Shown: positions 14,047-30,680 of the stretch, in pieces
Numbering within the stretch: position 1 is the stretch's first letter
How the letters are laid out: each line of letters begins with the position of its first letter
Origin: Lentisphaerota bacterium
Lineage (GTDB): Bacteria > Verrucomicrobiota > Kiritimatiellia > RFP12 > UBA1067
Reading direction: 5' to 3'
Length of the DNA: 33,019 bases
Assembly (NCBI GenBank): GCA_012838435.1
Contig: DUPH01000039.1
Location: 1-33,019, forward strand
Made by a program: the position numbers and the translations under genes
Notes under the pieces: generated by a model
What the model was told of the DNA's origin: nothing
The model's input: the letters and a program-made list of their open reading frames with translations, nothing else
The model's database searches: none

Positions 14047-14868
14047 TTACATCAGACTTTGGATTTTGGCGCGGACGTAGGCCTGTACGTCTGCCTCGAC
14101 CGGTTTGAAACACAGGTCGATGGGTTTGAATGTGTCGCCGCAAGCCGCGATTTCGGCCGCGACACGTTTGAGGAATAGGCTCTGCAACTCGGTGGCGATA
14201 TTGATCTTGGCTACGCCGTTGTCAATAGCCAGCCGGAGCTGGTCTTCTGGGACGCCGGTACCGCCGTGAAGAACAAGCGGGACATCCACTTTCTCGCCGA
14301 TTTCCCGCGCGCGCTCGATGTCCAGCATGGGTGCCTTTTTATAGAAGCCGTGGACTGTACCGATGGAGATGGCCAGGGCGTCGACACCGGTCTTCGAGAC
14401 GAATTCGTGAGCCTCTGCGGCGGTGGATAGTTCGATCGTGCCGTCGCCGAAGGGCACGTGCCCGATCTCGGCTTCCAGCGTGACTCCGGCGTCGTGCGCG
14501 ATGCGCGCGGCCTCGGCACTGAGCGCGATATTCTCAGCAAAAGAGAGCTTGGAGCCATCGATCATGACCGAGGTATAGCCGATTGCGATTGCCGCGCGGA
14601 GCTGTTCCAGCGATTCTCCGTGATCCAGATGCAGGACAACGGGAATGTCGGACTCCGATGCCAGACGCGTCACCATGGCTGCTATCAGGCTTGCGCGTTC
14701 ATCTTTGAAAAGGCGTTGGTATACCTGAATGATCACAGGCGCTTTCAACGCTTCCGCCTCCTTGAAGACCGCGAGCACGGTCTCCAAGTTGGCGACGTTG
14801 AAGGCGGCCACGGCCCGCTTTTCAGCGCGGGCCTGTGGCAGGATTTCGTTAACCGTGACAAGAGGCAT
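14047..14868 (-). CDS. Class II fructose-bisphosphate/tagatose-bisphosphate-type aldolase
   Basis: A 273-residue zinc aldolase. HLDHGES (80-86) gives catalytic D82 and Zn ligand H83; E134 in EAEIGH, H173 in GTVHGFY and H201 in LHGGTGVPEDQ complete the site, and MIDGSKLSFAEN is the family phosphate-binding segment. It cleaves a ketose 1-phosphate or 1,6-bisphosphate into dihydroxyacetone phosphate plus an aldehyde. GatY/KbaY, IolJ and Fba all share this fold, so the substrate is open. It follows the fucose-isomerase-like gene by eight bases with AAGGA just ahead of the start, so the two are one transcript. Confidence 0.92.
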   Translation of the reverse strand: MPLVTVNEILPQARAEKRAVAAFNVANLETVLAVFKEAEALKAPVIIQVYQRLFKDERASLIAAMVTRLASESDIPVVLHLDHGESLEQLRAAIAIGYTSVMIDGSKLSFAENIALSAEAARIAHDAGVTLEAEIGHVPFGDGTIELSTAAEAHEFVSKTGVDALAISIGTVHGFYKKAPMLDIERAREIGEKVDVPLVLHGGTGVPEDQLRLAIDNGVAKINIATELQSLFLKRVAAEIAACGDTFKPIDLCFKPVEADVQAYVRAKIQSLM

Positions 14869-14876
14869 GATTTTCC

Positions 14877-16226
14877 TTATTTCACGAGCACGGGCTTGAT
14901 GTCCAGCCAGCGGCAGAGTTCGAGCAGGTCGTTCTCGATGTCGGCGTGGATGATCGAGTAGTGGTGCTTGAAGCCCTCGGTCATGATCGTGTTGACCAGC
15001 CGCTCGGCGGTGCAGTCGAAACGGACGTTCAGCGGATTGCCGCGGATGAACGGCTCGGTGTCGAGCGCGGTGCCCTTGGCGATCAGCATGCGGTAGCCGT
15101 CGCCGTCTTCATCGAGCTGCGCCAGCGTGATCGGGCCGGCCTTCATCGAGAATTCGTTCGTGAGCCCTTTCTTGTTGCCGCCGTCCACGCGGAAGTGCTG
15201 GGATAGGGTGGTCTCCTCGAACTTGCGGCAGATGGCGGAGGGCGCCGCGCCGCAATGCCAGAGCACGGCCGTGTCTTGGTCGTAGTCGAATGAGATGAGG
15301 TCGGCGAAGAAGGGAATGCCGCCGCTCAGCGACGCTTCGATCTGCATCAGGACCGCGCCCAGCACGTCGCCTTCGCAACTGCTGACGAGGCGGTCGTTGT
15401 TGAGCATGCCGATCACGGCGCACGGCGCGATGCCGTAAATGTCCGACCACTCCGGCCAGCAGCGGATGGCGTATGCGGAGAGCGCGTACTTCTTGGCGGT
15501 CTTGCGGAACGATGCGTACATCCTTCCGGCGGGCTCGATATCCTTCTCGATCGTTTTGGCGCAGACGGCGGCGGTCTTGCGGACGGTGTCGACGCCCTGC
15601 TTGACCTCAGCCTCGCTCAGTTTTTTGGCGGTGTCGACAATCTCGAGGAGGTCGATGATCTCGATCTCCGTGCCGAGCTTGGCGCGCAGCCGCATCTCGT
15701 CGCAGTTGGAGGTGTAGAAGCCGGGGACGCGTCCGCCGACGAGGCCGACTTTGCCAGCGGCGAGGTCAGAGACGCACTTCAGGATTTCGAGGGGGCGCTT
15801 GACAAGCTCCCCGGCCTGTTCGGCCGGCCCGAAGACGAAGGTGTTCTTGCGGCCGAGTTGGCGCAGCGTGTGCACGGCCATGTTCGATCCGCAGAAGGAG
15901 TTCTGCGTCCACATGCGGTTGGCCTGCGGTTTTTCAGGCGTGGAGATCAGCACCACCGGCACCGGCAGTTCCTTGGCGATGACCGGAACGATCGCGCCGA
16001 CCGGGAAGGTCGCCATGAAGACGATGACGGCGCTGACATCCTGCTTACGCAGGTCGGCGCAGAGCGCGGACGCCTCCGCTGCGGTCGTGGTCAGGCTGTC
16101 GTCGGCCACGATCTCGTAGGGGAGGGTCTTGAGACTGGCCAGCATGGTCTTGCGCAGGTTGTCGATCTCGGGCGTAGCCCAACTGGCTTTGGTAAGTGCG
16201 ATGAATCCGACTTTGAATACTTTCAT
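14877..16226 (-). CDS. L-fucose/L-arabinose isomerase-like protein
   Basis: A 449-residue protein beginning MKVFKVGFIAL, with GGA about ten bases upstream. The fold resembles the fucose/arabinose isomerase family: an N-terminal Rossmann-like domain (VSAVIVFMATFPVGAIVPVI), a middle domain with GLVGGRVPGFY, and a C-terminal part with SCEGDVLGAVLMQI and HCGAAP, motifs that in FucI/AraA relatives hold the metal and substrate. Members isomerise aldoses to ketoses, but many in this distant group are uncharacterised. Eight bases separate it from the aldolase, suggesting isomerisation then aldol cleavage in one pathway. The substrate is unknown. Confidence 0.75.
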   Translation of the reverse strand: MKVFKVGFIALTKASWATPEIDNLRKTMLASLKTLPYEIVADDSLTTTAAEASALCADLRKQDVSAVIVFMATFPVGAIVPVIAKELPVPVVLISTPEKPQANRMWTQNSFCGSNMAVHTLRQLGRKNTFVFGPAEQAGELVKRPLEILKCVSDLAAGKVGLVGGRVPGFYTSNCDEMRLRAKLGTEIEIIDLLEIVDTAKKLSEAEVKQGVDTVRKTAAVCAKTIEKDIEPAGRMYASFRKTAKKYALSAYAIRCWPEWSDIYGIAPCAVIGMLNNDRLVSSCEGDVLGAVLMQIEASLSGGIPFFADLISFDYDQDTAVLWHCGAAPSAICRKFEETTLSQHFRVDGGNKKGLTNEFSMKAGPITLAQLDEDGDGYRMLIAKGTALDTEPFIRGNPLNVRFDCTAERLVNTIMTEGFKHHYSIIHADIENDLLELCRWLDIKPVLVK

Positions 16227-16261
16227 TGATGGGTTTCCTTTGAGGCGCTTGCAAAACTTCT

Positions 16262-16399: not shown

Positions 16400-17371
16400 T
16401 TAATCCTGTGACAGAGCGACCGCTTCTTCGAGCGTGATGACATCGAAGGCGGGGTTGTACTTCTTCAGGGTGTCTTTCACGGTCTGCGACGCGGTGATGA
16501 AACGGGTCTTTCCGAGTCCCTCGGCAAGATCGTAGACGCGCTGGCAGAGCCGTTCGGCGAGTGTCGGGTAGAGCGTGTCGTAGACTACGGCGCCTTCGCC
16601 CACGGCGTAGGACTCTTCCACGTTGGTACCGAACGGCACGAGCTTGTAGCCGAGCTGCTTGAGCAGGTCGCGCGGCGCGGAAGGATTGCCGCAGTAGTTC
16701 TTGAGGAAATCGCTTTCCAAATAAACCGCCTTGCGCGAGCCGGTCTTGTTCATGCCTTGCTCCACGAAGTACGCGGCGCTGTGGATGACCTTGACGTCGG
16801 GCAGGCGGTCGTGCAGGAACTCAAACGCCGAGGGCTCCGCCACGATCAGGGTCTTGCAGCCGCTGTCGGTGACCGCCTTCTTGAAGCGCGCGAAGACCTT
16901 TTTCGAAGCGGCTTCGAAGCCCAGCACCGCAAGAGCCTTGCCGGGGTCGCCGCCGGTGATCACCGCGCATCCTTTGTACAGTTCGGGCGTGGGGCCGAAG
17001 TAGAGCGCGTTCCCTTTGCCCTTGACGCTAAAGGCGTCCTTTTCCAGTGTCTTGGCCAGTGCCTTCACTGCGGCGGGTGCGAGGTCCGCCTCAACGATAT
17101 CCCGGCGCACCGCGAGGACGAGGCCAGTTTCGTCATAGTCGCTCACGCAGTGGAAGCGGTTGGCGGCGCTCAATGCGCTGCGATAGAACGCGTCGATGTA
17201 GTCGGGATTCGACAGGTTGGCGGCATCCATGCGGATGCGGTCGCACATCAGCGCACGGCCGCGCGGGGTGTCGGCTTCACGGAAGGTGACGTTCCCCACC
17301 GGGTCGAGATGCCTGCACATGAAGCAGAAGCGGCAGGCGTCAATCACATTCAGATAATTTTCGATATGCAT
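16400..17371 (-). CDS. Fe-S-binding partner of a GlcD-like oxidase (degenerate GlcF/HdrD type)
   Basis: A 323-residue protein starting behind AAAAGGAG. The N-terminus has one compact cysteine motif, C13xxC16xxC19, in DACRFCFMCRHLDP; C43 follows in LMCDRI. GlcF-type proteins usually carry two CxxCxxCxxxCP clusters and two CCG domains. Here the second cluster is missing and the CCG-like part (SAPRDLLKQLG then VGEGAVVYDTL) has lost most cysteines. It starts four bases after the FAD oxidase stop, so the pair is coupled and probably forms an electron-transfer complex oxidising a hydroxy acid. Confidence 0.78.
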   Translation of the reverse strand: MHIENYLNVIDACRFCFMCRHLDPVGNVTFREADTPRGRALMCDRIRMDAANLSNPDYIDAFYRSALSAANRFHCVSDYDETGLVLAVRRDIVEADLAPAAVKALAKTLEKDAFSVKGKGNALYFGPTPELYKGCAVITGGDPGKALAVLGFEAASKKVFARFKKAVTDSGCKTLIVAEPSAFEFLHDRLPDVKVIHSAAYFVEQGMNKTGSRKAVYLESDFLKNYCGNPSAPRDLLKQLGYKLVPFGTNVEESYAVGEGAVVYDTLYPTLAERLCQRVYDLAEGLGKTRFITASQTVKDTLKKYNPAFDVITLEEAVALSQD

Positions 17372-17375
17372 GTTG

Positions 17376-18818
17376 TTACACTCCTTTTCCGGGGAAACCC
17401 ATTTTGCCGGGGTTCATGATGTTGTTGGGGTCGAGCACTTTCTTGAGAGACTCAAGCACATTGAAGGCTGGCCCGTAAAGGTCGCGCATGATGCGGCCGA
17501 GCTTGAGGCCCACGCCGTGGTGCTCGTTGATCACGCCACCCTCGCGGATCGCCGCGCGGATCGCCATGTCCCAGATGCGGTTGTAGAGCGCGACCGCCTC
17601 GTTCGGGTCCTGTGGCGGTTCCTCGATGATGAAGCGCGCATAGAGCATGCAGCCCCAGTCGTACCAGTGCGAGAAGTGACCGATGAAGGCGGCCTGCGGG
17701 AAGTTCTCTTTGACGACATTCTTCATGGCCCAGTAGACATTCTCGATGTTGGCGAAGGTGGCGACCGTGTCGAGTGTGCCGAAAGCCTGCGGCAACTGGA
17801 ACATATAGGGCGGGTAGAAGAACTTGTAGCGGTTTTTCCACCACGACTGCCCGGCCTCTGTGCCCAGATCCTCCTTGGAGGTTCTTTCACAGATTTTGCA
17901 GGCCTCTTCCATCTCCAGATCCACGATCTTTTCCGGGCCGTCAAAGCCGAACACCAAGTACGCGCCCTTGCGGTCGATGTTGAGCACCCGCTTGATGACC
18001 CTGGCGGTCGAGGCCTCGTCATAGAGACGGATGACGGCGGGACGCATGCGGCTGATCATAAGTTGGGAACCCGCCACCATGGCATCGTGCATGGTTTCGA
18101 ACAGGTAGGCGTGGAACTTACGCGCGGCCGGGATCGGGTGAATCTTCATGACCGCCTTGGTCACGACTCCCAGTGTGCCCTCGCTGCCCAAAAAGAGTTC
18201 AGTGAGGGAGGGGCCGGAGGCGTGACGCGGTACCGGCAGGGTGTTGATGATTTCGCCGGTCGGTGTGACCACCTCCAGCGACATGATCATGTCTTCGATC
18301 TTGCCGTACTTGGTGCTGAGCACACCGGTACCGCGGTGCGCGATGAAGCCACCGAGTGTGGCGCAGGAAATCGAGGCGGGGAGGTGCATGGTGCTGAAAC
18401 CAGCTTTCTCGACCTCCCACTCCAGATGCTGCGCGTTGATGCCGGCTTCCGCAGTAACGCACATCGTGACCGGATCAATTTCGATCACTTTGTTCATGCG
18501 CTTCATGTCCAGCACGATGCCGCCGTAGATCGGCAACGCGCCGCCTTGGGAGCCCGAGCCGCCACCCCACGGGGTCACGGGAATATTGTGGGTGTTGGCG
18601 ATCTTGAGAATCGCGGCGACCTCCTGCGTGTTGCCGGGATAGACAACAAGATCCGGCGGCGTGGGTCTTTCACCGCGATCGTGCCAGCACTCCGGCACCC
18701 AATAGTAGTCGATGGAGTGGCCGAGATTATCGGCCTCGTTAGCTTGGACATACTCGTCGCCGACCACCCAGGTCAGCTCGCTACGAATCATCTCGTAGAG
18801 GTAGTTTTTTGGTGTCAT
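17376..18818 (-). CDS. FAD-linked oxidase, GlcD/AGPS family
   Basis: A 480-residue flavoprotein. The N-terminal PCMH-type FAD domain holds PWGGGSGSQGGA (83-94), then LGGFIAHRGTG and GSEGTLGVVT. The C-terminal half contains NEHHGVGLKLGR (HH at 433-434) and ends PNNIMNPGKMG, both hallmarks of the GlcD / D-lactate dehydrogenase / alkyl-DHAP synthase group. It should oxidise a 2-hydroxy acid and pass electrons through the Fe-S partner encoded next. An SD AAAGGAG is six bases ahead. No membrane segment is visible. The hydroxy acid (glycolate, lactate or a sugar acid) is not determinable. Confidence 0.9.
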   Translation of the reverse strand: MTPKNYLYEMIRSELTWVVGDEYVQANEADNLGHSIDYYWVPECWHDRGERPTPPDLVVYPGNTQEVAAILKIANTHNIPVTPWGGGSGSQGGALPIYGGIVLDMKRMNKVIEIDPVTMCVTAEAGINAQHLEWEVEKAGFSTMHLPASISCATLGGFIAHRGTGVLSTKYGKIEDMIMSLEVVTPTGEIINTLPVPRHASGPSLTELFLGSEGTLGVVTKAVMKIHPIPAARKFHAYLFETMHDAMVAGSQLMISRMRPAVIRLYDEASTARVIKRVLNIDRKGAYLVFGFDGPEKIVDLEMEEACKICERTSKEDLGTEAGQSWWKNRYKFFYPPYMFQLPQAFGTLDTVATFANIENVYWAMKNVVKENFPQAAFIGHFSHWYDWGCMLYARFIIEEPPQDPNEAVALYNRIWDMAIRAAIREGGVINEHHGVGLKLGRIMRDLYGPAFNVLESLKKVLDPNNIMNPGKMGFPGKGV

Positions 18819-18842
18819 GTTTTCTCCTTTAAGAGTTGTTTT

Positions 18843-19329: not shown

Positions 19330-19371
19330 AACGTTCAACGCTTAACGCTCAACTTTTAACGCTCAAGTTTT
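19330..19371. repeat. AACGCTC heptamer array over the FGGY-kinase stop
   Basis: Six in-register units: AACGTTC, AACGCTT, AACGCTC, AACTTTT, AACGCTC, AAGTTTT. The kinase stop (19349-19351, minus strand) falls inside, so the last residues NLSVKS are encoded by the array. Confidence 0.85.
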
Positions 19372-20845
19372 GAAGGGCGAGGTTCCTGTAGCACGGAGCC
19401 AGCACGTCGTGGATGGCGCGGTAGCGTTGGAACTGACTGTTGTAAAACTCCGCGCGTCCGGCGTCGGGCAACAACTCGCGATCAAAACGCAGGCACTGCT
19501 TGACGGCGCTGACCACATCGTCAAAAACGCCGATACCAACACCGGCGAGCAGGGCACTGCCGAACGAAGCGTCGCAACAGGCGGGGCACTTGACCGGCGC
19601 GTTGAAAAGGTCGCAGACAATGCTGCTCCAAAGCGCGCTCTTGGCACCGCCGCCGATCAACAGGAACTCGTGAACCGGAAGCTTCATCTTCTCGATGGTA
19701 CGGTAGCAGTCGCGCAACGAGTACGCCACGCCTTCAAGCAGCGCACGCGACGCATCGCCGCGTGTGCTGGCCATGCTGAACCCAGTGAAGCTGCCGCGCA
19801 GATCCGCGTCCCAGTAGGGCGAGCGCTCGCCCTGCAGATACGGGTGGAAGAAGACGCCGTTGCTGCCGGGCGGCGCTTGGGCGGCCTCGGCGTCGATGGC
19901 GTCGTAGTGCGTTCCCGGTGTGCAAAAGGTGTCGCGGTACCAGCGCTGGCAGACCGCCGCTGCGTTGGTCGCGGTGACGGTGTACCACATGCCGGGCACG
20001 ACATGCGAGTAGGTGAGCGTCTCGCGGTGCGGGTGAGCCTTGGCGGTCATCACATTGACATTGCCGGCGGTGGCGAGTTTGAGCACGCACTGGCCGGGCT
20101 CGATCGCGCCGGCTGCGTAATCCTCGACCGCTGAATCGCTGGCTCCCATAATGACGGGCGTACCGACCGGCAGACCTGTGTCGGCCGCCGCCTGCGCCGT
20201 GATGTGTCCCGCCAAGTCCGTCGGATCGCCGATGCGCGGCAGGGCTTTCAGCGGGATGCCGGCCAACTCGCAGAGCGCCTCCGACCAGCACGCTTTGCGC
20301 ATGTCCCAGAAGAGCGTACCTTGCGCCTCGATGCTGTCGCAGGCCATCTCGCCGGTCAGGAGATAACGGATGTAATCTTTGACGAACGAGATGTGCCGCG
20401 TCTGCTTGAGGGTGCGCGGCTCGTTGTTGCGCAACCACAGCATCTGCGGCAGTGTCCACGTCGGCGTCGGCGCCTGATAGGCGGTCTTGAAGATCAGGTC
20501 GAAATGATTCCGCTTCAGGGCCGCGCACTCCTGCACGCTGCGCTGGTCGGTCCAGATGATGGTCGGGCGCACCACGTTGAGTTTGCTGTCGAGCAGCACC
20601 GCGCCGTGCGTGTAGCTGTCGAGCGCAATGGCCGCGATGCGGCGGCGCTGCTTGAGCTTCTTGAGCACCTCGCACATGACGCGATACCAGTCGGCAGGAT
20701 CCTGTTCGGCCCAGGCCGGTCGCGGGTGGTGGGTGGGGTATTCGCCGGACACACTCTCGACCACGTTGCCCGCAAGGTCGATCAATGTCACCTTGCAGCC
20801 GCCCGTGCCGAAATCGATTCCAAGTAAAAGGTCTTGGCGTTTCAT
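19349..20845 (-). CDS. FGGY-family carbohydrate kinase (xylulokinase-like)
   Basis: A 498-residue kinase. DFGTGGCKVTL (11-21) is the first phosphate-binding loop of the actin-like ATPase fold; TDQRS at about 99-103 is the conserved sugar-site segment with catalytic Asp nearby, and MGASDS with IGGGAKSALW are the later adenosine/phosphate loops. Length fits xylulokinase, fuculokinase and rhamnulokinase relatives. The start at 20845 overlaps the IolB stop (TGATG), showing translational coupling; an ATG at 20860 is also possible. It probably phosphorylates the ketose made by the upstream isomerase. The last six residues derive from a heptamer repeat. Confidence 0.9.
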   Translation of the reverse strand: MKRQDLLLGIDFGTGGCKVTLIDLAGNVVESVSGEYPTHHPRPAWAEQDPADWYRVMCEVLKKLKQRRRIAAIALDSYTHGAVLLDSKLNVVRPTIIWTDQRSVQECAALKRNHFDLIFKTAYQAPTPTWTLPQMLWLRNNEPRTLKQTRHISFVKDYIRYLLTGEMACDSIEAQGTLFWDMRKACWSEALCELAGIPLKALPRIGDPTDLAGHITAQAAADTGLPVGTPVIMGASDSAVEDYAAGAIEPGQCVLKLATAGNVNVMTAKAHPHRETLTYSHVVPGMWYTVTATNAAAVCQRWYRDTFCTPGTHYDAIDAEAAQAPPGSNGVFFHPYLQGERSPYWDADLRGSFTGFSMASTRGDASRALLEGVAYSLRDCYRTIEKMKLPVHEFLLIGGGAKSALWSSIVCDLFNAPVKCPACCDASFGSALLAGVGIGVFDDVVSAVKQCLRFDRELLPDAGRAEFYNSQFQRYRAIHDVLAPCYRNLALQNLSVKS

Positions 20846-21639
20846 CAACCCAATATCCATTTGTGGTCGGGATCGGGCACCGACAAAAACTTGCGGTGGT
20901 TCGGGCCGGCCATGACCCACAGGTAGTACATGGTGTAGCCCGGCGCGTTGATTACGGGGTGGTAGCCGCGCGGGATCAGCGTGGTGTCGTTCTGTTGCAC
21001 CGTGCAGGTGAAATCGATCGAACGGTCATCGGTGTAGATCTTCTGGATGCCGTAGCCCTGCGATGGATTGAAGCGGAAGAAGTAGACCTCTTCCATATCC
21101 ACCTCGACCGGCAGGTTGTCGAAATCGTGACGGTGCGGCGGATAGCTCGCATGATTGCCCGAGGGCACAAACGCCTCGCCGATGAAGAAGTGGCTGGAAG
21201 GAAACTCGTCGGTCAACATGAGCAACGCATCGCGTTGGTAACTCTCCTTGCCGATGCGGGCTTCCTTTACCTGTTCGGGTGTGATCTCATACGCGGCGGT
21301 CTTGAGGTCGGATGGCGAGGCCGCCCAAGCGATCTCGACATCGGTCGTGCCGGTCACGGTGTAGGCGGTGCCGCACGGAATGTAGACGGTGTGCGGCTTG
21401 CCGGAGAAGACATCCTTGCGCGTGCCGACCTTCGCGAAATTGAAGCTCTCGCCGGTGACGGCACAGGTTCCGCCCAGCACGACCAGGGCGACCTCAAACG
21501 CGCCGGACTCGGCTTTGTACGACTCGCCTGCTTTGAGCGTGATGATGCCGAACTCGGTCAGTTTCAAATCGCCGTCGCCGATCGAGGCGATCTTGGTGAA
21601 CGTGCCTTGGTTCTTGTAGTGTTTCAGATACTCTTTCAT
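20845..21639 (-). CDS. iolB: 5-deoxy-glucuronate isomerase (IolB) family
   Basis: A 264-residue bicupin of the KduI/IolB family. Conserved metal-site residues are visible in PPHRHD (H169, H171), MEEVYFFRF (E183/E184) and GYHPV (H227). IolB converts 5-deoxy-D-glucuronate to 5-dehydro-2-deoxy-D-gluconate in myo-inositol breakdown. AAAGGAG lies five bases before the ATG. The rest of a classical iol set (IolD hydrolase, IolA) is not in this window, so an inositol route is not proven; the enzyme may isomerise another uronate or deoxy-sugar. The gene overlaps the downstream FGGY kinase and follows a PfkB kinase by 47 bp. Confidence 0.88.
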   Translation of the reverse strand: MKEYLKHYKNQGTFTKIASIGDGDLKLTEFGIITLKAGESYKAESGAFEVALVVLGGTCAVTGESFNFAKVGTRKDVFSGKPHTVYIPCGTAYTVTGTTDVEIAWAASPSDLKTAAYEITPEQVKEARIGKESYQRDALLMLTDEFPSSHFFIGEAFVPSGNHASYPPHRHDFDNLPVEVDMEEVYFFRFNPSQGYGIQKIYTDDRSIDFTCTVQQNDTTLIPRGYHPVINAPGYTMYYLWVMAGPNHRKFLSVPDPDHKWILG

Positions 21640-21686
21640 GATGCTCCTTTCTTTACGCCGGTATGCCCCGGCTTGCCGCGCGCGGA

Positions 21687-22613
21687 TCACGCGTCGCGGA
21701 TTGTGGTTTCAAACTTCTTCAAATGCTGTTCTGCCGTTTTGAGATTCGGTATGCCGGTTCTGCCGCCGAGCTGCGTGCATTTCAGCGCGGCGACGACGGT
21801 CGCGAAGCGCATGCAGGACTCCCAAGGGCGCCCCTGCGCAACGGCGAATGTGAAAGCGCCGTGATAGGTGTCGCCCGCGCCGGTGGTGTCGACCTCAGCA
21901 GGCACCTCGTACTGCGGACAACTGAACACCTGCTTCCCGTCAAAGCCGATCGAACCGCGCTTGCCGAGGGTGATCCCCGCGAAGCGGCAACCGGGCACAA
22001 ACAGTTTGCGCACCGCAGCGGTCGGCGAGCGCGATCCCGTAAACCGGGCGGCGAAAGGCTGTGAGGCGATGATGATATCGCTCAACGCCAACAGCTCTTC
22101 GATGCCTGGGACGAGCGTTCCGGCGTCGATAGAAACACACACGCCATGTTTGCGGGCGGTTTTGGCCGCAGCGAGCGCGGCTTGCATCTGGTGTCCGTCA
22201 AGATGCAGCAGGTCGCTGGCGCGGATCCGCTCGCGGCAGAACTCGCGTGCCGAGAGAGGACGGGCTGTGCCGCGCGTCCAGGCGATGCTGCGCTTGCCGC
22301 TTGGCTGATCGATCCAGCAAAAGCCAGCCGGTGACTCGGCGTTTTTGCGGACTTTGATGCCTGCGGTGTCGACGCCCTCATCCGCGATGCCGCGCACGAT
22401 CTGCTCGCCGCGCTCGTCGTCTCCGACCACCCCGCAAAACGCAGTGTCCGCGCCTAGACGGGCAGCGGCGACGATGGCGGTGGCGGCCGGACCGCCACCC
22501 TGTATGAGGCTCTCGACGATCTCGACTTTGTCGTCATGCGGGATATGCGGCAGGACACAGAGGTAGTCCATGCCGCAATAGCCGATACCGATGAGCTTGG
22601 GGGTTCGCTTCAT
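21687..22613 (-). CDS. PfkB-family sugar kinase
   Basis: A 308-residue ribokinase-fold protein with motif 1 GGGPAATAIVAAARLG (about 39-54) and motif 2 DTTGAGDTYHGAF (242-254), catalytic D248. In an iol setting the PfkB enzyme (IolC) phosphorylates 5-dehydro-2-deoxygluconate, the IolB product, which would suit this neighbourhood; but ribokinase, fructokinase and KdgK share the motifs. Its start overlaps the MFS transporter stop by ATGA, so it is the second gene of the MFS-PfkB-IolB-FGGY operon. Confidence 0.9.
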   Translation of the reverse strand: MKRTPKLIGIGYCGMDYLCVLPHIPHDDKVEIVESLIQGGGPAATAIVAAARLGADTAFCGVVGDDERGEQIVRGIADEGVDTAGIKVRKNAESPAGFCWIDQPSGKRSIAWTRGTARPLSAREFCRERIRASDLLHLDGHQMQAALAAAKTARKHGVCVSIDAGTLVPGIEELLALSDIIIASQPFAARFTGSRSPTAAVRKLFVPGCRFAGITLGKRGSIGFDGKQVFSCPQYEVPAEVDTTGAGDTYHGAFTFAVAQGRPWESCMRFATVVAALKCTQLGGRTGIPNLKTAEQHLKKFETTIRDA

Positions 22614-23872
22614 TCTCGCGCGACGCTTTCCTCGTTGATGAAGTCATCCTTAAAACTGGTGAGCGCGGCGACCAGCAGAACGACGCCTCCGAGCACGAAC
22701 CCGATGGAGAGGTAGGACATCGCGGTGGTCAGGCCAACCGTCTGCTTGGCCCAGCCCAGGATGACCGGGGCAAAGGCGCCGACAAAGAAAATACAGGTCA
22801 GCATCAGGCCGGTGGCCGAGCCGCGGTATTTGGGCTCGATCACATCAAAAAGCGTGGCATAGATATTTGAGTCGAAGATCCCGCGGAAGATGCCGAAACC
22901 AGCCAGAGCGGCGTAGCAGACCCACAGCGTGCTGGTCGCGCCCATGAGATAAACGAAGGGGGCGGCCAGGAACAGGCCGAAGACCACGACCTTGATCCGG
23001 ACACGCGGGAAACGCACTGCCAGCAGGTCGGAGATCCGTCCGCCCAGCAACACACCGGTGGCGGCCGCGACCTGATGGTAGAACATCGAGGAAAAACCGA
23101 CTTTGGCCAGTTTGAGTTCGTATTTCTCGTACAGGAAGGTGGATATCCAGGTGTTGAAACCGCAGATTACAAAGAAAAACGCGCTGAACGAGAGGCAGAG
23201 CGCCCAGAAAGTCGGTTTGCACAGGACACCGTGGAACAACTCCTTGAGAGGGATACGGCTGACCTTTTTGCGGTCGTCGGTCTGTGAGGGCTGCCCCACA
23301 TCCTTGACGCGCCAAAGGATGATGAAGCAGAGGATCAGCGCCATGGTGCCGAAGAGAAAGAAGGGGGTCCGCCAACCGAAGTGCTCGCCCATCCATCCGG
23401 CAATCAGGCCGCTGAAGATCAGGCCGAAGTAGAGCGCCGTCTGATGGATGCCCATGGCGAGCGCGCGGGTCTTGTGATGGTACTGACCGATCAGCGAATT
23501 TGCGGAGGGAAAGTAGCATGCCTCGCCGCCGCCGTTGCCGAATCCCCGGATCAGGATGAGACTTGTCATGCCGCCCGCAATGCCGGAGAGGAAGGTACAG
23601 CCGCTCGCCAGCAAGAGGCTGAAAAAAAGCACCCACTTGCGGCGCGAGATATCGCCCAAGTACCCGCCCAGCGGAACCAGCAGCGCGTAGCACCAGAGAA
23701 AGATGGAGCCGATGAGCCCGGTCTGCACCGAGGAGAGCCCCAAGTCTTTCGTCAGCAGCGGCAGGACCACGTTGTAGGACTGTCGGTCGGCTTGGTTAAA
23801 GAAAAACGCGAACCAGAGCAGCGCGATCAGTTCCCATTTGTAGGGCAACCAGGTTTTTTTCGTGTCAGTCAT
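22610..23872 (-). CDS. MFS transporter
   Basis: A 420-residue transporter with about twelve predicted membrane segments. Family features include GGYLGDISRRKWV between segments 2 and 3, and RGFGNGGGEACYFP in segment 4, typical of the anion:cation symporter / hexuronate (ExuT/GudP) group of MFS proteins, where an N-terminal FFNQADRQSYNVV also fits. Hexuronate or related organic-anion uptake would match the IolB-family isomerase encoded downstream. AAGGAAG is seven bases before the ATG. It is the first gene of the catabolic operon. Confidence 0.88.
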   Translation of the reverse strand: MTDTKKTWLPYKWELIALLWFAFFFNQADRQSYNVVLPLLTKDLGLSSVQTGLIGSIFLWCYALLVPLGGYLGDISRRKWVLFFSLLLASGCTFLSGIAGGMTSLILIRGFGNGGGEACYFPSANSLIGQYHHKTRALAMGIHQTALYFGLIFSGLIAGWMGEHFGWRTPFFLFGTMALILCFIILWRVKDVGQPSQTDDRKKVSRIPLKELFHGVLCKPTFWALCLSFSAFFFVICGFNTWISTFLYEKYELKLAKVGFSSMFYHQVAAATGVLLGGRISDLLAVRFPRVRIKVVVFGLFLAAPFVYLMGATSTLWVCYAALAGFGIFRGIFDSNIYATLFDVIEPKYRGSATGLMLTCIFFVGAFAPVILGWAKQTVGLTTAMSYLSIGFVLGGVVLLVAALTSFKDDFINEESVARE

Positions 23873-24037: not shown

Positions 24038-25309
24038 TCACTTGTCTTTGCCCGGGCGCGGGGCGACGTTCTCTTCGGGCAACTCGATATCCGCCGTGCC
24101 TTCGAAGTCAATCGCGGCAGGCTTACAGTTCATGTTGTAGAACGGCGAGTCCTTGTTCGTCAAAATGTCAGACATGCGCACGACCTGTCCGGTATAAGCC
24201 GAGAGACGCCCCATGATCGCTGCCGCCGTGGCGTAGGCGATGGTCTCGCCCTCGTTAAGTTGCTTGCCGTGGATCACACTGTCCAGCAGGGCCGAGTGCT
24301 CGTTAACGTAGGGGTTGCCTTCGTTACCGACATCTTCCAGTTTTATCTCCTCGCCGTCATAACGGCGGACTTTGCCGCCGCCGGAAATCTCTGCCAGTTC
24401 GGTTGCAAACAACTCGCCCACGCGGCCGGCGCAACCGGGGATTTGGCGTGCGAGACTGTGGATGTGCAATCCGTCGCCGTAGTCGAAGTCTACGCTGAAA
24501 AAGTCATACTGATTGCCGGTGGGACGGCGTACGCGTGCGCCCACGCCCATCGCGGTGCGCGGATAGCGCCCGATGAACCAGTTGGCCACGTCGATGTTGT
24601 GGACGTGCTGCTCGACGATGTGGTCGCCCGACATCTCGGCCCAGTTCATCCAGTTGTTGCACATATACTGTGCGTTGGTGACGCCCTCCTTACGCGGACG
24701 GATACTACCGCGTGCCTGGCACCAATAGATGTTGCCGCCGCGGATTGTGCCGAGCTGACCTTTTTGAAACGCCAGCGCCTGACGCATGTAGGCACCCTGA
24801 TGGCGACGTTGCGTACCGGTCACCAGTGTCAACTGCTTGGCTTTGGCGGCAGCCGTGATTTCCAGAATATGGCGCACGCCTTGCGGGTCAACCGCGATTG
24901 GCTTTTCCGCGAACACATGCTTGCCGGCCTTGATGCAGGCGTCGAGGTGGCGCGGGCGGAAGGCGGGCGGCGCGCCGAGGATTACGATCTCGATGCCCGG
25001 TACATCGAGCATCTTGAAGTAGCCGTCGCCGCCGCCGAAGGCGAATTTCTCATCGCAGCCGAACTGCTTACAGCGGCGCTGCGCCTCTTCGAGGAAAAAG
25101 TCGTGTGCGGCCACCAGTTGAATGTTATGGCCGATCTTTTTGGCGGCTTCGGCCATGTTGTTGAAAGCATCGGCAGCGCGTCGGCCCGAGCCGATCATGG
25201 CGACCTTGAAGGTGCGTGCCGCGCCTTGCGCGGACACGATCGTGGGAGCTGCGGCCATCATGGCCGAGAATAAGGATGCATTTTTAATGAATTCTCTACG
25301 GTTCTGCAT
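24038..25309 (-). CDS. Tat-exported Gfo/Idh/MocA oxidoreductase (1)
   Basis: A 423-residue protein. The N-terminus NRREFIKNASLFSAMMAAA is a twin-arginine signal. A Rossmann fold follows with VAMIGSGRRA (36-45) and the family EKP at 135-137 (GKHVFAEKPIAV), whose lysine is catalytic. The C-terminal half with GDHIVEQHVHNIDVANWFIG is the substrate domain; its histidines probably line the site. Such enzymes use tightly bound NAD(P) and oxidise or reduce sugar hydroxyls; Tat export of a folded, cofactor-loaded enzyme fits. It lies 61 bp after the TIM-barrel gene on the same strand, in a four-gene exported block. Confidence 0.92.
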   Translation of the reverse strand: MQNRREFIKNASLFSAMMAAAPTIVSAQGAARTFKVAMIGSGRRAADAFNNMAEAAKKIGHNIQLVAAHDFFLEEAQRRCKQFGCDEKFAFGGGDGYFKMLDVPGIEIVILGAPPAFRPRHLDACIKAGKHVFAEKPIAVDPQGVRHILEITAAAKAKQLTLVTGTQRRHQGAYMRQALAFQKGQLGTIRGGNIYWCQARGSIRPRKEGVTNAQYMCNNWMNWAEMSGDHIVEQHVHNIDVANWFIGRYPRTAMGVGARVRRPTGNQYDFFSVDFDYGDGLHIHSLARQIPGCAGRVGELFATELAEISGGGKVRRYDGEEIKLEDVGNEGNPYVNEHSALLDSVIHGKQLNEGETIAYATAAAIMGRLSAYTGQVVRMSDILTNKDSPFYNMNCKPAAIDFEGTADIELPEENVAPRPGKDK

Positions 25310-25370
25310 GGTTGGTACCTTTTGGTTGTGCCGGACGTGGCTGACAGGCCAGACACGTCCGACGGGGTTA

Positions 25371-26315
25371 TTACGCTTGAGCCCACTGCTCGCGCATGAG
25401 CGCGGCGGCTTGTGCCAGAAGCTTTCGTTTTTGATCGTCGGAAACGCCTTTCGGATAACCGGCCTCAATGCTGATTGCGCCACGGTATCCGATCAGCTTC
25501 AAGCCTTTGAAGCCGAGCACATAATTGTCAGCCTCGCTATCGACACCCGGGATCTTGCGGGTCTTGCGCGAGGCGATGTGGACGTGCTTGAGATAAGCGC
25601 CCGCTGAGATAAACGCCCCCATGTCGTTGGTCTCTTCAGCGGTCATGTGCCAGAAGTCGCCGAGCACGCCGATGGCGGGGCTGTTCGCATCGCGTGCGAT
25701 GGCGGCGGCGTCCGCCACGAGACGCAGGAACATGGTTTCGTTACGATTAAGCGGCTCCATGATCAGGCAGACGCCCAGTTTCTCTGCATGAGCGAGGATT
25801 TCCGGCAGGATCTCCTTGAGGTAACGTTCACGCAGTTCGGGGAAGGGCAGGTCGATCTTCTTGCGCGCCGGCACGGTGATGACGCCGGTGGCACCGAGCT
25901 TGGCCGCGCTCTCTAAGATGCTCTTGGTGGTGTCGATCACCGCGCGGCGCTCTGTGGGATCGGCCATACCTGCGTTGCCGCGTGCGCTGATGCAGGTCAC
26001 ACTGAAGCGTAGGTTGCGATTTTTGATCGCAGCGGCCATCTCGTCGACGTTTTTGGCCAGCCACTCCCAGTTGCCGCCGTTGATCTCGATGCGGTCATAG
26101 CCGTTAGCCTCAAGGAAATCGTAGCGCTCCGCGAAGCTTTTGCCCGGCACCAGCATCTGCTGGCAGCCGATGTGCAACTCAGCGGGCGGTTCAGGTGCCT
26201 TGAGAACCGGCATGCCGCTCGTGGTGGCGGCGTGCGCCTGCCGTGCGCCGAACAGCGCCGCACCGCCCAGTCCCGCTGCACTGAATGTGAAAAACTGTCT
26301 TCTGTTGATAGCCAT
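25371..26315 (-). CDS. Tat-exported sugar phosphate isomerase/epimerase-like TIM barrel (1)
   Basis: A 314-residue protein. NRRQFFTFSAAGLGGAALFG is a Tat signal cut near AHAA. The xylose-isomerase-like barrel is seen in YDRIEINGGNWEWL, MEPLNRNET (metal-binding Glu), GVLGDFWHM (Asp/His) and KHVHIASR. The barrel ends ISIEAGYP with the last metal Glu. Relatives include hydroxypyruvate isomerase and IolE/IolI-like enzymes, and the 3-keto-glycoside lyases of exported glycoside-opening systems. It is flanked by the two exported oxidoreductases, pointing to sequential action outside the cytoplasm. The start at 26315 has no strong SD. Confidence 0.88.
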   Translation of the reverse strand: MAINRRQFFTFSAAGLGGAALFGARQAHAATTSGMPVLKAPEPPAELHIGCQQMLVPGKSFAERYDFLEANGYDRIEINGGNWEWLAKNVDEMAAAIKNRNLRFSVTCISARGNAGMADPTERRAVIDTTKSILESAAKLGATGVITVPARKKIDLPFPELRERYLKEILPEILAHAEKLGVCLIMEPLNRNETMFLRLVADAAAIARDANSPAIGVLGDFWHMTAEETNDMGAFISAGAYLKHVHIASRKTRKIPGVDSEADNYVLGFKGLKLIGYRGAISIEAGYPKGVSDDQKRKLLAQAAALMREQWAQA

Positions 26316-26344
26316 GTGTGTCTGTCTTTTCCCCGTGTTAGAAG

Positions 26345-27703
26345 TTAGAGTGTCCAAGGTTTTCGCAACGTGCGGCTCAGCATCGCACTGGCCGCATCGT
26401 TTCCGACGATCTTTTCCGCAACGGGATCCCATTTGAGGTTCGCGTGTCCCAGACGCAGACCGATGACTGCCAGCGCACCGATGGTGTTTGAGCGGTGCCC
26501 GACTTCGCAAGGGGCGACGGTAGGCTTGCCGCTGTAGATGCAATCGATGAAATTCCGTTCGTGAGAGCGGCTGGCATAGACGCGGATCTCGTCCTCCTTG
26601 ATCTTTTCACGGATCAACTCGGCGGGATTCGTCGAGATGCTGCCGCGCGTGACGAAAAGCGATCGATCATTTTCACCGTAGAAACGGATGCCAACTTTAA
26701 ATTCGTTGTTCACCGTAACGCGCGCGCCCTCGGGGTACACGAAATCGTAGGAGAACCCCTTGGCCACGTTGAAGACGTCACCGGCTGGCGGCATCTCCAC
26801 CGCCTTGATGTTCTCGATCGAAGTCGGTCCGGAATGATCTTTGTCAAAGGCCCACTGCACGATGTCGGAGTGATGCGCGCCCCAGTCGGTCAACACACCG
26901 CCCGCGAAATCGTAGTTGCTGCGCCACGAGAGCGGCTGCAGCGCGGAGCAGTAGGGGCGCATCGGGGAAGGCCCCGTCCAAAGCTCGTAATCCAGCCCGT
27001 CCGGAACCGCGCACGGTTCGAAGCTGGCCAGCGCGCCGGTGCGTCCGTAAAACTTATGCCACGCCTTGGGCAATCCGATTTCAACCTTGTGGATTTTTCC
27101 CAGCCGGTTGTTGCGGATGAACTCGACAGCCATCTTGAAGTAGGTGTCGGAGCGTTGTTGCGAGCCGGTCTGAAACGTCACGCCGCTCTCCTTGGCGACG
27201 TTGGCCATGGCACGGCCTTCGGCGACCGAGAGCGAAAGCGGCTTTTGGCAGTACACGTGCAGGCCTTTGCGCATAGCGGTGATCGCCATGACCGCATGCC
27301 AGTGGTCGGGCGTGCAGATCATCACGGCGTCGAGTCCGGGGATTTCCAGCAACTCACGGAAGTCGACAAAAGACGCGCATCCGTTATACGATGACTGGCC
27401 TGTCTTTTTTGCGTAATGCGCATTGATCGCGCGTGTGCCGTGATCGCGCCCGCCCGGCTCTCCGGAGTTATATCCATAGAGCGAGGACTCGCGGTTGCAG
27501 TCGCAGACCGCTACGGCCTGCACGCGGTCATCCTGCAGGAAGTTACTCGTGTTGTAGCGGCCCTGCGTGCCGTAGCCAATGATGCCGAGCGTGATACGGT
27601 CAGACGGCGCGGGACGGCCCGCGCGGCCAAGCGCCGAAGCCGGTATCAGCGCGGGGAAGCCGAGAGCGGCCGCGGTTGCTTTGATGAATGAGCGACGTTT
27701 CAT
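26345..27703 (-). CDS. Tat-exported Gfo/Idh/MocA oxidoreductase (2)
   Basis: A 452-residue protein. KRRSFIKATAAALGFPALIP is a Tat signal. Nucleotide loop IGYGTQG (42-48). The normal EKP motif is QKP here (153-155 in YCQKPLSLS), keeping the lysine. TDWGAHHSDIVQWAF is the family substrate-domain motif with paired histidines, and TGPSPMRPY is the loop common in the PVC-type group of exported family members. It starts one base after the preceding TIM-barrel stop (27705), so the two are translated together. Confidence 0.92.
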   Translation of the reverse strand: MKRRSFIKATAAALGFPALIPASALGRAGRPAPSDRITLGIIGYGTQGRYNTSNFLQDDRVQAVAVCDCNRESSLYGYNSGEPGGRDHGTRAINAHYAKKTGQSSYNGCASFVDFRELLEIPGLDAVMICTPDHWHAVMAITAMRKGLHVYCQKPLSLSVAEGRAMANVAKESGVTFQTGSQQRSDTYFKMAVEFIRNNRLGKIHKVEIGLPKAWHKFYGRTGALASFEPCAVPDGLDYELWTGPSPMRPYCSALQPLSWRSNYDFAGGVLTDWGAHHSDIVQWAFDKDHSGPTSIENIKAVEMPPAGDVFNVAKGFSYDFVYPEGARVTVNNEFKVGIRFYGENDRSLFVTRGSISTNPAELIREKIKEDEIRVYASRSHERNFIDCIYSGKPTVAPCEVGHRSNTIGALAVIGLRLGHANLKWDPVAEKIVGNDAASAMLSRTLRKPWTL

Positions 27704-27704
27704 A

Positions 27705-28523
27705 TTAAGCTCTCCCTAGTTTTTTCATGTACGCGAGACAGTCGCGCACGTCATCCAGCGTGTCGGGTCGGACTTCGGCCTCGACCACATACCACTCAGT
27801 GACATCGGCCTCGCACGCAGCGAAAACCTTCTCCCAATCCGCGCCATCGGTGCCGATTACGCCGGTGGTTTTGGAGGCGGCCTTGACATGCACGGCGGGG
27901 TTGCGGTTCGGGTATTTCTTCAACCAGAAGGCGGGCGATTCTCCGGCCAACAGGCAGTGTCCGAGATCAAGTTGTTGCAAGACGTCCGGCGAGGCGTTCT
28001 GATAGAGGATATCCCACTTGCACACGCCGTCAAAGCGGTCGCGGAACTCATGCTGGTGATTGTGGTAGCCCAAACCGATCCCAGCCGCCTTGAAAGCCTG
28101 CGCGGCAACGGACATCTGCTCCGCGAAGCGCTTCCAGCCATCCGCTGTCTTGGCGTCGAACCAAGGAACAAACAGATAGGGGGCGCCCAACTCGCTGGCA
28201 AATGTCACCGATTCCGCGATGTTCTCGGGCTTGATGATCCGGTCGGCCTGCATCTGCATACCGGCTGCCGCGAGACCGTGGTCTTTAAAAAGCGTGTTCA
28301 GTTCCTTGGCGGTGCGACCAAAAAAGCCGCCGCACTGCACCCCCTCGTAGCCCATCGCTTTGAGCGCACGCAGCGTACCGGGAAAATCCCGCTCGCAAAG
28401 CTTACGTACCGAATAGAGTTGAACCCCCGCTTTTACACGCCGCGTCGGCGCGGCACCGAGCCCAGACAGCGCCAAACCCGCCGTAGCGGCGAAGCCTGTC
28501 CTTAGAAAAGAGCGTCTGTTCAT
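27705..28523 (-). CDS. Tat-exported sugar phosphate isomerase/epimerase-like TIM barrel (2)
   Basis: A 272-residue protein, first gene of the exported block. NRRSFLRTGFAATAGLALSG is a Tat signal. The barrel shows VQLYSVRKL (strand 1), YEGVQCGGFFG, YHNHQHEF (metal His/Glu), QLDLGHCL (Asp/His) and PAVHVKAAS, i.e. the metal sites of the AP-endonuclease-2-like family. Its sequence is clearly different from the other TIM barrel in the block, so the two should do different steps. AAGGGGAA precedes the ATG and an extended -10 lies just upstream. Confidence 0.88.
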   Translation of the reverse strand: MNRRSFLRTGFAATAGLALSGLGAAPTRRVKAGVQLYSVRKLCERDFPGTLRALKAMGYEGVQCGGFFGRTAKELNTLFKDHGLAAAGMQMQADRIIKPENIAESVTFASELGAPYLFVPWFDAKTADGWKRFAEQMSVAAQAFKAAGIGLGYHNHQHEFRDRFDGVCKWDILYQNASPDVLQQLDLGHCLLAGESPAFWLKKYPNRNPAVHVKAASKTTGVIGTDGADWEKVFAACEADVTEWYVVEAEVRPDTLDDVRDCLAYMKKLGRA

Positions 28524-28865: not shown

Positions 28866-28893
28866 AACGTTCAACGCTCAGCTTTCAACTTTG
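28866..28893. repeat. Heptamer array over the stop of the second ABC ATPase
   Basis: AACGTTC-AACGCTC-AGCTTTC-AACTTTG in register. The ATPase stop (28871-28873, minus strand) lies inside, so the C-terminal residues KLKAER are repeat-encoded. Confidence 0.8.
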
Positions 28894-29671
28894 ACTGCAA
28901 AGCGCGGCCGACGTCCGGCACTGCCTCTAGCAGTGTGCGCGTGTAGGCGTGGCGGGGCACGTCGAGCACATCGGCGGCAATGCCGGTTTCGACGAACACG
29001 CCGTCATGCATCACAGCCACGCGGTCGCAGATGTTGCGGACGACGGCGAGGTCGTGCGAGATGAGGATGATGGAGAGGCCGAGGCGCTGCTGCAAGGAAC
29101 GTACGAGATTGAGGATGCGGGCTTGGACCGAGACGTCGAGCGCGCTGACCGGTTCGTCCGCGATGATCAGGCGCGGTTCGAGCGCCAGGCAACGCGCGAA
29201 GCTGACACGCTGACACTGGCCGCCGCTGATTTCACGCGGGAAGGCGTCCAGCACTGTCGTGGGCAGTCCCACCAGGTCCAGCAGTTCGTCGACGCGTTGC
29301 GGAATCGCCGCCGCCGGGCGCATGCGGTGGACGCGTAGCACTTCGTGCAGCGTCTGTCGAACCGTCATACGCGGATTGAGCGAGCCCGTGGCATCTTGGA
29401 AGACCATCTGCACGGCGCGCCGGTAGTCGCGGAAGCCCTGACGCGAGAGCCGGTCGACCGCCCGGCCTTCAAACGTGAGTGTTCCGGCGCTGGCCGGTTG
29501 CAAGCCGATCAGCGCGCGGGCGAGCGACGATTTACCACAACCGCTTTCGCCGACGATGCCGAGTGACGCGCCAGCCGCGAGGCTGAATGAAACGCCGCGC
29601 ACGGCGCGGACCGGCGGCTGGCCGGGCGTGCGATAGGTGACGTGCAGGTCTTGGACGGTCAGGAGTGACAT
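28871..29671 (-). CDS. Peptide-type ABC transporter ATPase (OppF/DppF-like)
   Basis: A 266-residue ATPase: Walker A GESGCGKS (41-48), Q-loop QMVFQDATGSLNPRMT (the SLNPR segment is typical of the Opp/Dpp subfamily), signature ISGGQCQR, Walker B LIIADEPVSALD and the H-loop ISHDLAV. It would energise import of an oligopeptide or similar solute with the neighbouring ATPase. Its start overlaps the stop of that gene by 13 bp. No permease or binding protein is in the window, so the pair is orphaned here. The usual C-terminal extension after the nucleotide-binding domain is short. Confidence 0.92.
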   Translation of the reverse strand: MSLLTVQDLHVTYRTPGQPPVRAVRGVSFSLAAGASLGIVGESGCGKSSLARALIGLQPASAGTLTFEGRAVDRLSRQGFRDYRRAVQMVFQDATGSLNPRMTVRQTLHEVLRVHRMRPAAAIPQRVDELLDLVGLPTTVLDAFPREISGGQCQRVSFARCLALEPRLIIADEPVSALDVSVQARILNLVRSLQQRLGLSIILISHDLAVVRNICDRVAVMHDGVFVETGIAADVLDVPRHAYTRTLLEAVPDVGRALQSKLKAER

Positions 29672-30630
29672 GGCTGTGTATGCCAGCAGCGCGAACGGTG
29701 GCTGTCGGCGTCGTCGGTTTCAGGGGGTTGTTCGGCGTGGCAACGCGCGTCGGCCTGTGCGCAGCGCGGCGCAAAGGCACAACCGGCGGGCCAGGCGTCC
29801 GGCGAGGGCACGGTGCCGGGAATATCCTGCAGCGGAGCGTTGCGCGGTGCGTCAAGCATCGGCACCGCGGCGAGCAGGCCGCGCGTGTAGGGGTGGCGCG
29901 GGTTCGACAGCACGTCGGTCACGGCACCGGACTCTACCACCTGCCCCGCATACATCACATACACGCGCGTCATGCGCCCGGCGACCAATCCGAGGTTGTG
30001 GGTGATCAGCAACACCGCCATGCCGTCGGCGTCAGCCAGTGTGTCAATCAGGTCGAGCACCTGCTGTTGGGTTGTGACGTCAAGAGCGGTGGTCGGTTCG
30101 TCTGCAACCAACAGCTTGGGACGCGCGGCTAACGCCATGGCGAGCATGACGCGCTGCTGCTGGCCGCCGCTGAGTTCGCACGGGAAAGCGCGGGCCGCGC
30201 GGGCGGGATCTGGGAGTCCAGTCCGCGTGAGCAGTTCAACGCAGGCATCGCGGTGCGCGGCGCGCGGCAAGTCAGGCAGGCATTCCGCGATTTGATCTTG
30301 TACGCGCATCACCGGGTTGAGGCTTGCAGAGGGGTCTTGAAAGACATACGCGATACCGCGACCGCGTACGCGGGTCAGGGCGTCGGGACTGAGCGCCAGA
30401 GTGTCCGTGCCGTCAAACAGCACACGTCCCTGCAGGCGGGCGCGATCCGTGGGCGAGAGCCGCGTGAGCGACAGGGCGGTGAGACTTTTGCCGCAACCGC
30501 TTTCACCGACTACAGCGACGCGCTCGCCGGCCTGGACGGTCAGCGAGACATCACGCACAGGCGTGGTCAGCATTCCGTCACGTCGGAACGTGACGGAGAG
30601 GTGATCAACTTGGAGTAGGGGATGGGGCAT
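29659..30630 (-). CDS. Peptide-type ABC transporter ATPase (OppD/DppD-like)
   Basis: A 323-residue ATPase: Walker A GESGCGKS (42-49), FQDPSASLNPVMRV, signature LSGGQQQR, Walker B LLVADEPTTALD, H-loop ITHNLGL. The C-terminal extension has the Opp/Dpp cysteine motif (PAGCAFAPRC, then C and RCW), which can bind an Fe-S cluster in this subfamily. The ATG at 30630 was chosen; an upstream frame would start inside a heptamer repeat. A truncated copy of its first 43 codons lies upstream at 30910-31041, separated by a small membrane-protein gene. Confidence 0.92.
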   Translation of the reverse strand: MPHPLLQVDHLSVTFRRDGMLTTPVRDVSLTVQAGERVAVVGESGCGKSLTALSLTRLSPTDRARLQGRVLFDGTDTLALSPDALTRVRGRGIAYVFQDPSASLNPVMRVQDQIAECLPDLPRAAHRDACVELLTRTGLPDPARAARAFPCELSGGQQQRVMLAMALAARPKLLVADEPTTALDVTTQQQVLDLIDTLADADGMAVLLITHNLGLVAGRMTRVYVMYAGQVVESGAVTDVLSNPRHPYTRGLLAAVPMLDAPRNAPLQDIPGTVPSPDAWPAGCAFAPRCAQADARCHAEQPPETDDADSHRSRCWHTQPCHS

Positions 30631-30638
30631 GATTAGGC

Positions 30639-30680
30639 AACTCTCAACTTTCAACTCTTAACTCTCAACTTTCAACTCTT
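30639..30680. repeat. AACTCTC/AACTTTC heptamer array
   Basis: Six perfect 7-nt units: AACTCTC, AACTTTC, AACTCTT, AACTCTC, AACTTTC, AACTCTT. The stop of the small membrane-protein gene (30658-30660, minus strand) lies within it and its last residues ELKVES are repeat-encoded. Confidence 0.9.

Follow-up and report, generated by a model that had tools for sequence, protein, structure and literature searches.

Two oxidoreductases and two TIM barrels with twin-arginine signals in a Lentisphaerota genome: a candidate module for oxidation, epimerisation and elimination of glycosides

The stretch of DNA analysed here (33,019 nucleotides of contig DUPH01000039.1 from a Lentisphaerota bacterium, referred to as the window) carries four genes head to tail on the minus strand, from 28523 to 24038, in which two xylose-isomerase-like triose-phosphate isomerase (TIM) barrels, B1 and B2, alternate with two Gfo/Idh/MocA (Gfo) oxidoreductases, GFO1 and GFO2. 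The question raised by this locus is what the four proteins might do to a glycoside, and on which side of the membrane. That glycosides can be cleaved by oxidation and elimination has been learned only recently, mainly from Bacteroides and Agrobacterium, and an earlier note on this DNA had read the block as a complete extracytoplasmic version of such a route, with the two barrels as lyase and hydratase. The reading that we propose, at a probability of about one half, is instead that the block is a module for oxidation, epimerisation and elimination of glycosides, exported by twin-arginine translocation (Tat).

In the direction of transcription the block comprises B1 (272 residues; 27705..28523, with an ATG at 28556 as a possible alternative start), GFO1 (452 residues; 26345..27703), B2 (314 residues; 25371..26315) and GFO2 (423 residues; 24038..25309), with intergenic gaps of 1, 29 and 61 bases, respectively. 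The open reading frames and their Pfam matches, all of which exceed the cut-offs, confirm the alternating arrangement that had been described: AP_endonuc_2 (PF01261) is found in both barrels and GFO_IDH_MocA (PF01408) in both oxidoreductases, with PF19051 in addition in GFO1. A twin-arginine motif can be read directly in each protein (MNRRSFLRTG in B1, MKRRSFIKAT in GFO1, MAINRRQFFTF in B2 and MQNRREFIKN in GFO2) and is followed by a hydrophobic stretch at the N terminus; the motifs are also present in relatives. With TatC encoded in the genome, all four proteins qualify by sequence as Tat substrates, as the earlier note had supposed. Export does not distinguish the block, however, because Tat or Sec signals are already present in comparable known systems: the glycoside 3-dehydrogenase BT2158 is periplasmic according to its description (PMC11300592), Tat signals occur in its homologues, and homologues of the O-glycoside beta-eliminase (OGE) and of BT2156 have apparent Sec signals. 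Scans for promoters and terminators gave results near the shuffled expectation.

The arrangement is more than chance, because four congeners and a genome from a second genus share the gene order. The order B1-GFO1-B2-GFO2, followed by genes for a major facilitator superfamily (MFS) transporter and a PfkB kinase, is found again in three genomes of the same genus (G001, G002 and G003); a fourth (G004) keeps it up to B2, where the contig ends, and G022, from another genus, keeps the order through to the PfkB kinase, with the block at 66–81% identity and a regulator gene on the opposite strand interrupting the series. Both families abound in the source genome, a 4.0 Mb draft that is 90% complete: Gfo proteins give 74 matches and barrels 33. 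Tat signals and barrel genes next to Gfo genes are typical of this genome, since a Tat motif is present in at least 21 of 29 Gfo proteins that were checked and 13 of the 33 barrels adjoin a Gfo gene, as counted from the coordinates.

In a sequence search of the PDB, the best solved relatives of B1 were the Agrobacterium eliminase AtOGE (8bvk, 7.6e-19) and two proteins from Alistipes and Bacteroides, 8tcd (4.4e-16) and 8tct. A fold search with an AlphaFold model of B1 (mean predicted local distance difference test score, pLDDT, of 89) was headed by AL1 and BT1, titled 3-keto-beta-glucopyranoside-1,2-lyase, two unassigned Parabacteroides relatives and AtOGE. The nine best matches were lyases, AtOGE or unassigned relatives, and IolE, next in the ranking, fell short of the best match by over six orders of magnitude. 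In the tree B1 falls in a clade with OGE and BT2156-type barrels (support 95/98), and the hydratases of OGE operons stand apart. The metal ligands of AtOGE are His132, Asp163, His189 and Glu233, and its catalytic base is His134 (PMC10628242). B1 has equivalents of all five, namely H154, D186, H212 and E248, which form a predicted Mn2+ site, and the base H156; the hydratase carries a Glu at the position of the first His. Since fold, tree and active-site residues agree with the characterised lyases, B1 is a good candidate for a 3-keto-glycoside 1,2-lyase (beta-eliminase), and for this barrel a role proposed in the earlier note is supported.

B2 proved to be of a different kind. The two barrels lie in separate halves of the tree, in keeping with the strong difference remarked on before, and B2 forms a clade with YcjR (99/90), itself on a long branch, apart from hydroxypyruvate isomerase (Hyi), YgbM and FrlC. 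The PDB sequence search gave 3kws (8.4e-66) and then YcjR (6wn6, 9.4e-17), and a fold search with a predicted model (pLDDT 79) returned the two in the same order, with identities over the fold alignment of 45% to 3KWS and 26% to YcjR. The Glu-Asp-His-Glu site is kept in B2 as E187, D220, H246 (or H244) and E284, aligned to YcjR, and is predicted to bind a metal. B2 thus belongs to a YcjR/3KWS group and is a candidate keto-sugar epimerase. Two other assignments were rejected. B2 is not an AtHYD-type hydratase, the homologues of which occupy the opposite half of the tree, and neither B1 nor B2 is a hydroxypyruvate isomerase, as neither joins Hyi or YgbM; clustering with those cytoplasmic enzymes was part of the outcome that the earlier note had named as speaking against its proposal.

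The Gfo proteins belong to the superfamily expected of glycoside 3-dehydrogenases, but not to the BT2158 type. GFO1 has the motifs GYGTQG and DWGAH and the lysine of QKP, and its best PDB matches are 8tdf and 8tdh, which makes it a distant relative of BT2158; it scores 166.8 bits against NF058561, the BT2158 glycoside 3-dehydrogenase model, with a cut-off of 750, and ranks 27th for this model in its own genome. GFO2 gives no match to NF058561, and both proteins were rejected on this model as BT2158 equivalents. A GFO1-like Gfo occurs within the BT2158 cluster of Seramator. The best NCBIfam match of GFO2 is IolG (68.2 bits, cut-off 355), and its pairing elsewhere and its place in the tree mark it as a recurrent partner of B2-type barrels. 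B2 and GFO2 form a recurrent module across two phyla: genes of the two types adjoin at another locus of the same genome (contig C196) and in G028, G022 (contig C205), G021, G366 and G289, and Parabacteroides distasonis has a pair in which the B2 homologue is 43% and the Gfo 39.5% identical. Among 80 Bacteroidales loci fetched with a glycoside 3-dehydrogenase probe, GFO2 and B2 not being part of the query, three (L097, L100 and L126) have the pair some 2.4 kb upstream of BT2158-DUF1080-BT2156, which ties it to 3-keto-glycoside chemistry independently of the window.

Three congeners (G001, G003 and G004) have a fifth gene, GFO3, between B1 and GFO1 (L026:7768-9165, minus strand; L028:1834-3231, plus strand; L029 from 917, plus strand). 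It encodes a BT2158-like Gfo protein with a Tat signal and a possible lipobox cysteine. Nearly the full length of this protein is matched by 8tdf (5e-55) and 8tdh, both structures of a glycoside 3-dehydrogenase, and in the tree it forms a clade with BT2158 (98/91). The source genome holds many other BT2158-related genes, several of them adjoining DUF1080 genes, and DUF1080 has 20 matches in it.

From the gene order, Tat motifs, family placement, conserved catalytic residues and conserved association that were observed, we infer a set of reactions, their order, a cofactor cycle, a site of hydration and a kind of substrate. An exported Gfo protein, GFO1 and in three congeners also the BT2158-type dehydrogenase, would oxidise the glycoside at C3, and B1, with Mn2+, would take the C2 proton and expel the aglycone to leave a 2-hydroxy-3-keto-glycal. 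B2 would invert the carbon beside the ketone of the keto-sugar, as YcjR does at C4, with its partner GFO2 making or reducing the ketone, so that the module could take sugars that are not gluco-configured. The freed sugar would be imported by the MFS transporter and passed to an aldose-ketose isomerase, PfkB and FGGY kinases and a class II aldolase. No hydratase is present in the block, and for this reason the route is not complete there, contrary to what had been suggested. More tentatively, one may envisage a general periplasmic non-hydrolytic route in which oxidation is followed by an exported YcjR-like epimerase with its Gfo partner and then by the lyase, one lyase serving several sugars; in Bacteroidales the pair may reach the quinone pool via a NapC-like cytochrome. 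What would be new is the epimerase pair added to an already known exported oxidation-elimination. Such a pair would broaden the range of sugars handled by the pathway in these bacteria, and would suggest a function for the 3KWS structure and its Gfo neighbour.

Gfo enzymes require NAD(P), of which there is no free pool outside the cytoplasm; the choice is between a closed hydride cycle and electrons from outside. Glucose-fructose oxidoreductase is an exported example of a bound cofactor with hydride recycling. By analogy, the Gfo proteins of the block may be exported folded with bound NAD(P), which would be recycled between the incoming glycoside and the outgoing 3-keto sugar, making a soluble carrier unnecessary. 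The Gfo enzyme DgpA uses NAD in a ping-pong manner in which the glycoside is oxidised and the enzyme is re-oxidised by 3-oxo-glucose (PMC11239390). The redox carrier that the earlier note had suggested looking for is represented in the window only by a MauG-type protein, a MauG-family di-haem cytochrome c peroxidase with three CxxCH motifs, about 18 kb from the block on the other strand (4260-5666, plus strand), and no multiheme cytochrome is found consistently near the block in relatives. The GFO2-B2 pair of Bacteroidales is directly preceded by a gene for a NapC/NirT cytochrome with a fused FGE/SUMF1 domain (L100:3541-9335, L126:2997-8802 and, in P. distasonis, L136:8914-12843), and ResB and CcsA-type cytochrome assembly genes follow in L100. 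This protein is a possible electron link from the exported Gfo to the quinone pool in that order; we know of no report of such a cytochrome preceding the pair. Of the 80 BT2158-type loci from Bacteroidales, 22 have a TatC gene in the fetched flank, in most cases immediately after the lyase gene (L100:13502-14350, L126:12659-13441 and 20 others of L052-L131).

Several characterised systems share parts of this scheme. The Bacteroides BT2156-BT2159 disaccharide/glucosinolate pathway comprises the BT2158 dehydrogenase, the DUF1080 3-ketotrehalose hydrolase BT2157 and a BT2156-type lyase, with 8tcd and 8tct as AL1/BT1 structures. It likewise clusters an exported Gfo dehydrogenase with an exported xylose-isomerase-like lyase of the same fold and active-site residues as B1, and the congeners have a BT2158-like Gfo beside B1. 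The block of the window, on the other hand, has neither a BT2158 equivalent nor DUF1080, adds a YcjR-like barrel, its Gfo partner and GFO1, and uses Tat rather than Sec or lipoprotein signals for its barrels. E. coli ycjQRS converts a D-guloside to a D-glucoside via 3-keto intermediates, YcjR being the 3-keto-glycoside 4-epimerase, and resembles the block in that B2 clusters with YcjR, keeps its metal ligands and is paired with a sugar dehydrogenase. It is cytoplasmic, however, YcjQ is not a Gfo protein and there is no lyase, whereas the pair in the block carries Tat signals. B1 has the fold and all metal and base residues of AtOGE from the Agrobacterium O-glycoside beta-eliminase pathway (GlycDH, AtOGE, AtHYD and a Gfo reductase; PMC10628242), and OGE homologues also have apparent signal peptides, but the block lacks an FAD-GMC dehydrogenase and an AtHYD-type hydratase, and its Gfo proteins have export signals. 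The DgpA/CGE C-glycoside pathway joins Gfo oxidation, with the hydride recycling described above (PMC11239390), to elimination by a Mn2+ barrel, although CGE is a heterodimer with no more than a distant similarity to B1 (7drd). The NAD-dependent GH4 enzymes, which are redox-elimination glycosidases (PMC10628242), perform the same kind of chemistry in a single protein of unrelated fold, encoded outside the block.

The sugar-uptake operon that had been noted after the block is real by its profile matches; it runs in the same direction, on the minus strand, and ends at 14047. It begins with the MFS transporter (22610..23872; PF07690), nearest to the anion:cation symporter (galactonate/hexuronate) subfamily (TIGR00893, 126.6 of 395 bits), the PfkB-family sugar kinase (21687..22613; PF00294), an IolB/KduI-family bicupin isomerase (20848..21690; PF04962) that exceeds the IolB cut-off (TIGR04378, 253.3 of 205 bits) and an FGGY-family, XylB-like ketose kinase (19349..20920; TIGR01312, 387.3 of 380.25 bits). 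These are followed by a GlcD-like FAD-linked 2-hydroxyacid oxidase subunit (17376..18818; PF01565 and PF02913), a conserved 323-residue protein (16400..17371) with a CxxC near its N terminus and no Pfam or NCBIfam match, which by its conserved position is a presumed GlcD partner, a FucI/SftI-family aldose-ketose isomerase (14877..16229, with a longer open reading frame to 16382; PF02952; NF048012, 257.7 of 700 bits) and a class II fructose/tagatose-bisphosphate-type aldolase (14047..14868; PF01116; TIGR00167, 228.7 of 215.6 bits). The FGGY and GlcD genes are about 530 bases apart (18815-19349) compared with about 30–60 in relatives, and the interval contains a 132-residue open reading frame. 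The unit from PfkB to the aldolase is kept far beyond the block, for example in G177 and partly in G376 and G055. With its aldose-ketose isomerase, its pair of kinases and its bisphosphate aldolase, the operon suggests a route by way of a ketose 1,6-bisphosphate. Only two genomes, both distant members of the phylum (G318, L206:259-2956; G136, L218:7560-10376), were found to have the isomerase gene beside one for a GH4 enzyme that exceeds the cut-off of an alpha-galactosidase model, and conversion of galactose to tagatose bisphosphate would be a guess at the route.

Four other explanations were weighed against an oxidation-epimerisation-elimination module. The block might carry out periplasmic remodelling like that of ycjQRS, in which a glycoside is oxidised, epimerised and reduced but not cleaved and B1 is a side enzyme or a dehydratase. 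The clustering of B2 with YcjR and the recurrence of B2-GFO2 at several loci that have no lyase would fit; B1, however, is adjacent, co-directional and conserved with the block and has lyases as its nearest structures, and we consider this explanation unlikely. The route of the earlier note, oxidation, elimination, hydration and reduction outside the cytoplasm, agrees with a lyase-like B1, with two Gfo partners that could be oxidase and reductase and with the Tat signals on all four proteins. It is improbable given that B2 clusters with YcjR and not with AtHYD-type hydratases, though hydration could still come from B1, from the DUF1080 proteins encoded elsewhere or from the cytoplasm. A cyclitol pathway of the inositol type, with GFO2 as IolG, B1 as IolE and B2 as IolI or IolO, followed by IolB, an IolC-like kinase and an IolJ-like aldolase, would account for the bicupin, the PfkB kinase and the class II aldolase, and IolG does top the NCBIfam matches of GFO2, though far under its cut-off. 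Yet the roughly 90% complete assembly has no IolD equivalent (best 193.2 of 715 bits), B1 is closer by fold to lyases than to IolE, the profile of which it matches at 54.2 of 290 bits, and inositol enzymes are cytoplasmic in known pathways, so that a cyclitol route seems doubtful and a complete inositol pathway is ruled out by the missing IolD. The IolB equivalog, in a genome that has no IolD, belongs to an operon conserved across the phylum.

The remaining explanation, a sulfoquinovose-glycoside route into a pathway like sulfo-EMP2 (SftI/SqvD-type isomerase, kinase, class II aldolase and iron-dependent alcohol dehydrogenase), is very improbable. The isomerase of sulfo-EMP2 is of family PF02952 and its aldolase of family PF01116 (PMC9594981), the types found in the operon, sulfoquinovose isomerase is the only NCBIfam match of the isomerase, and the best plasmid match of the latter adjoins sulfite reductase and siroheme genes. 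The score of that match is nevertheless far below the cut-off, which rules out a strict sulfoquinovose isomerase; the kinases are of the PfkB and FGGY families whereas sulfo-EMP2 has a PfkA type, the operon has no recognised gene for sulfonate processing, and two relatives pair the isomerase with the GH4 alpha-galactosidase-type enzyme. A plasmid of Candidatus Chlorohelix (L137:5119-14492) carries an SftI-like isomerase gene together with genes for a pyrophosphate-dependent fructose-6-phosphate phosphotransferase, a Gfo, a barrel, a sugar ABC transporter and sulfite reductase, and resembles a sulfoquinovose cluster.

Several observations weigh against the proposed oxidation, epimerisation and elimination as well. 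B1 is only about 25–30% identical to the characterised lyases, and no assayed enzyme was found in the literature among the block proteins or their close orthologues. GFO3 is missing from the block position in the window, G002 and G022, leaving the window without the BT2158-type dehydrogenase of the congeners, and the position of GFO1 in the tree is weakly supported, with long branches involved. The structure nearest to B2, 3KWS, is a putative sugar isomerase with no assigned function, and in the fold search D-tagatose 3-epimerase was level with YcjR. Finally, the operon is present in distant families that do not have the block, and in G380 it lies behind GFO2 where B1, GFO1 and B2 are absent, which makes the block an optional addition to the operon.

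Two genes for Opp-type ABC ATPases (28871-30654, minus strand) lie directly upstream of the block in the window; the corresponding place in G002 holds a divergent regulator gene. Group II intron domains (RF02001 and RF00029) are found at 31518-32127 on the plus strand, near the end of the contig.

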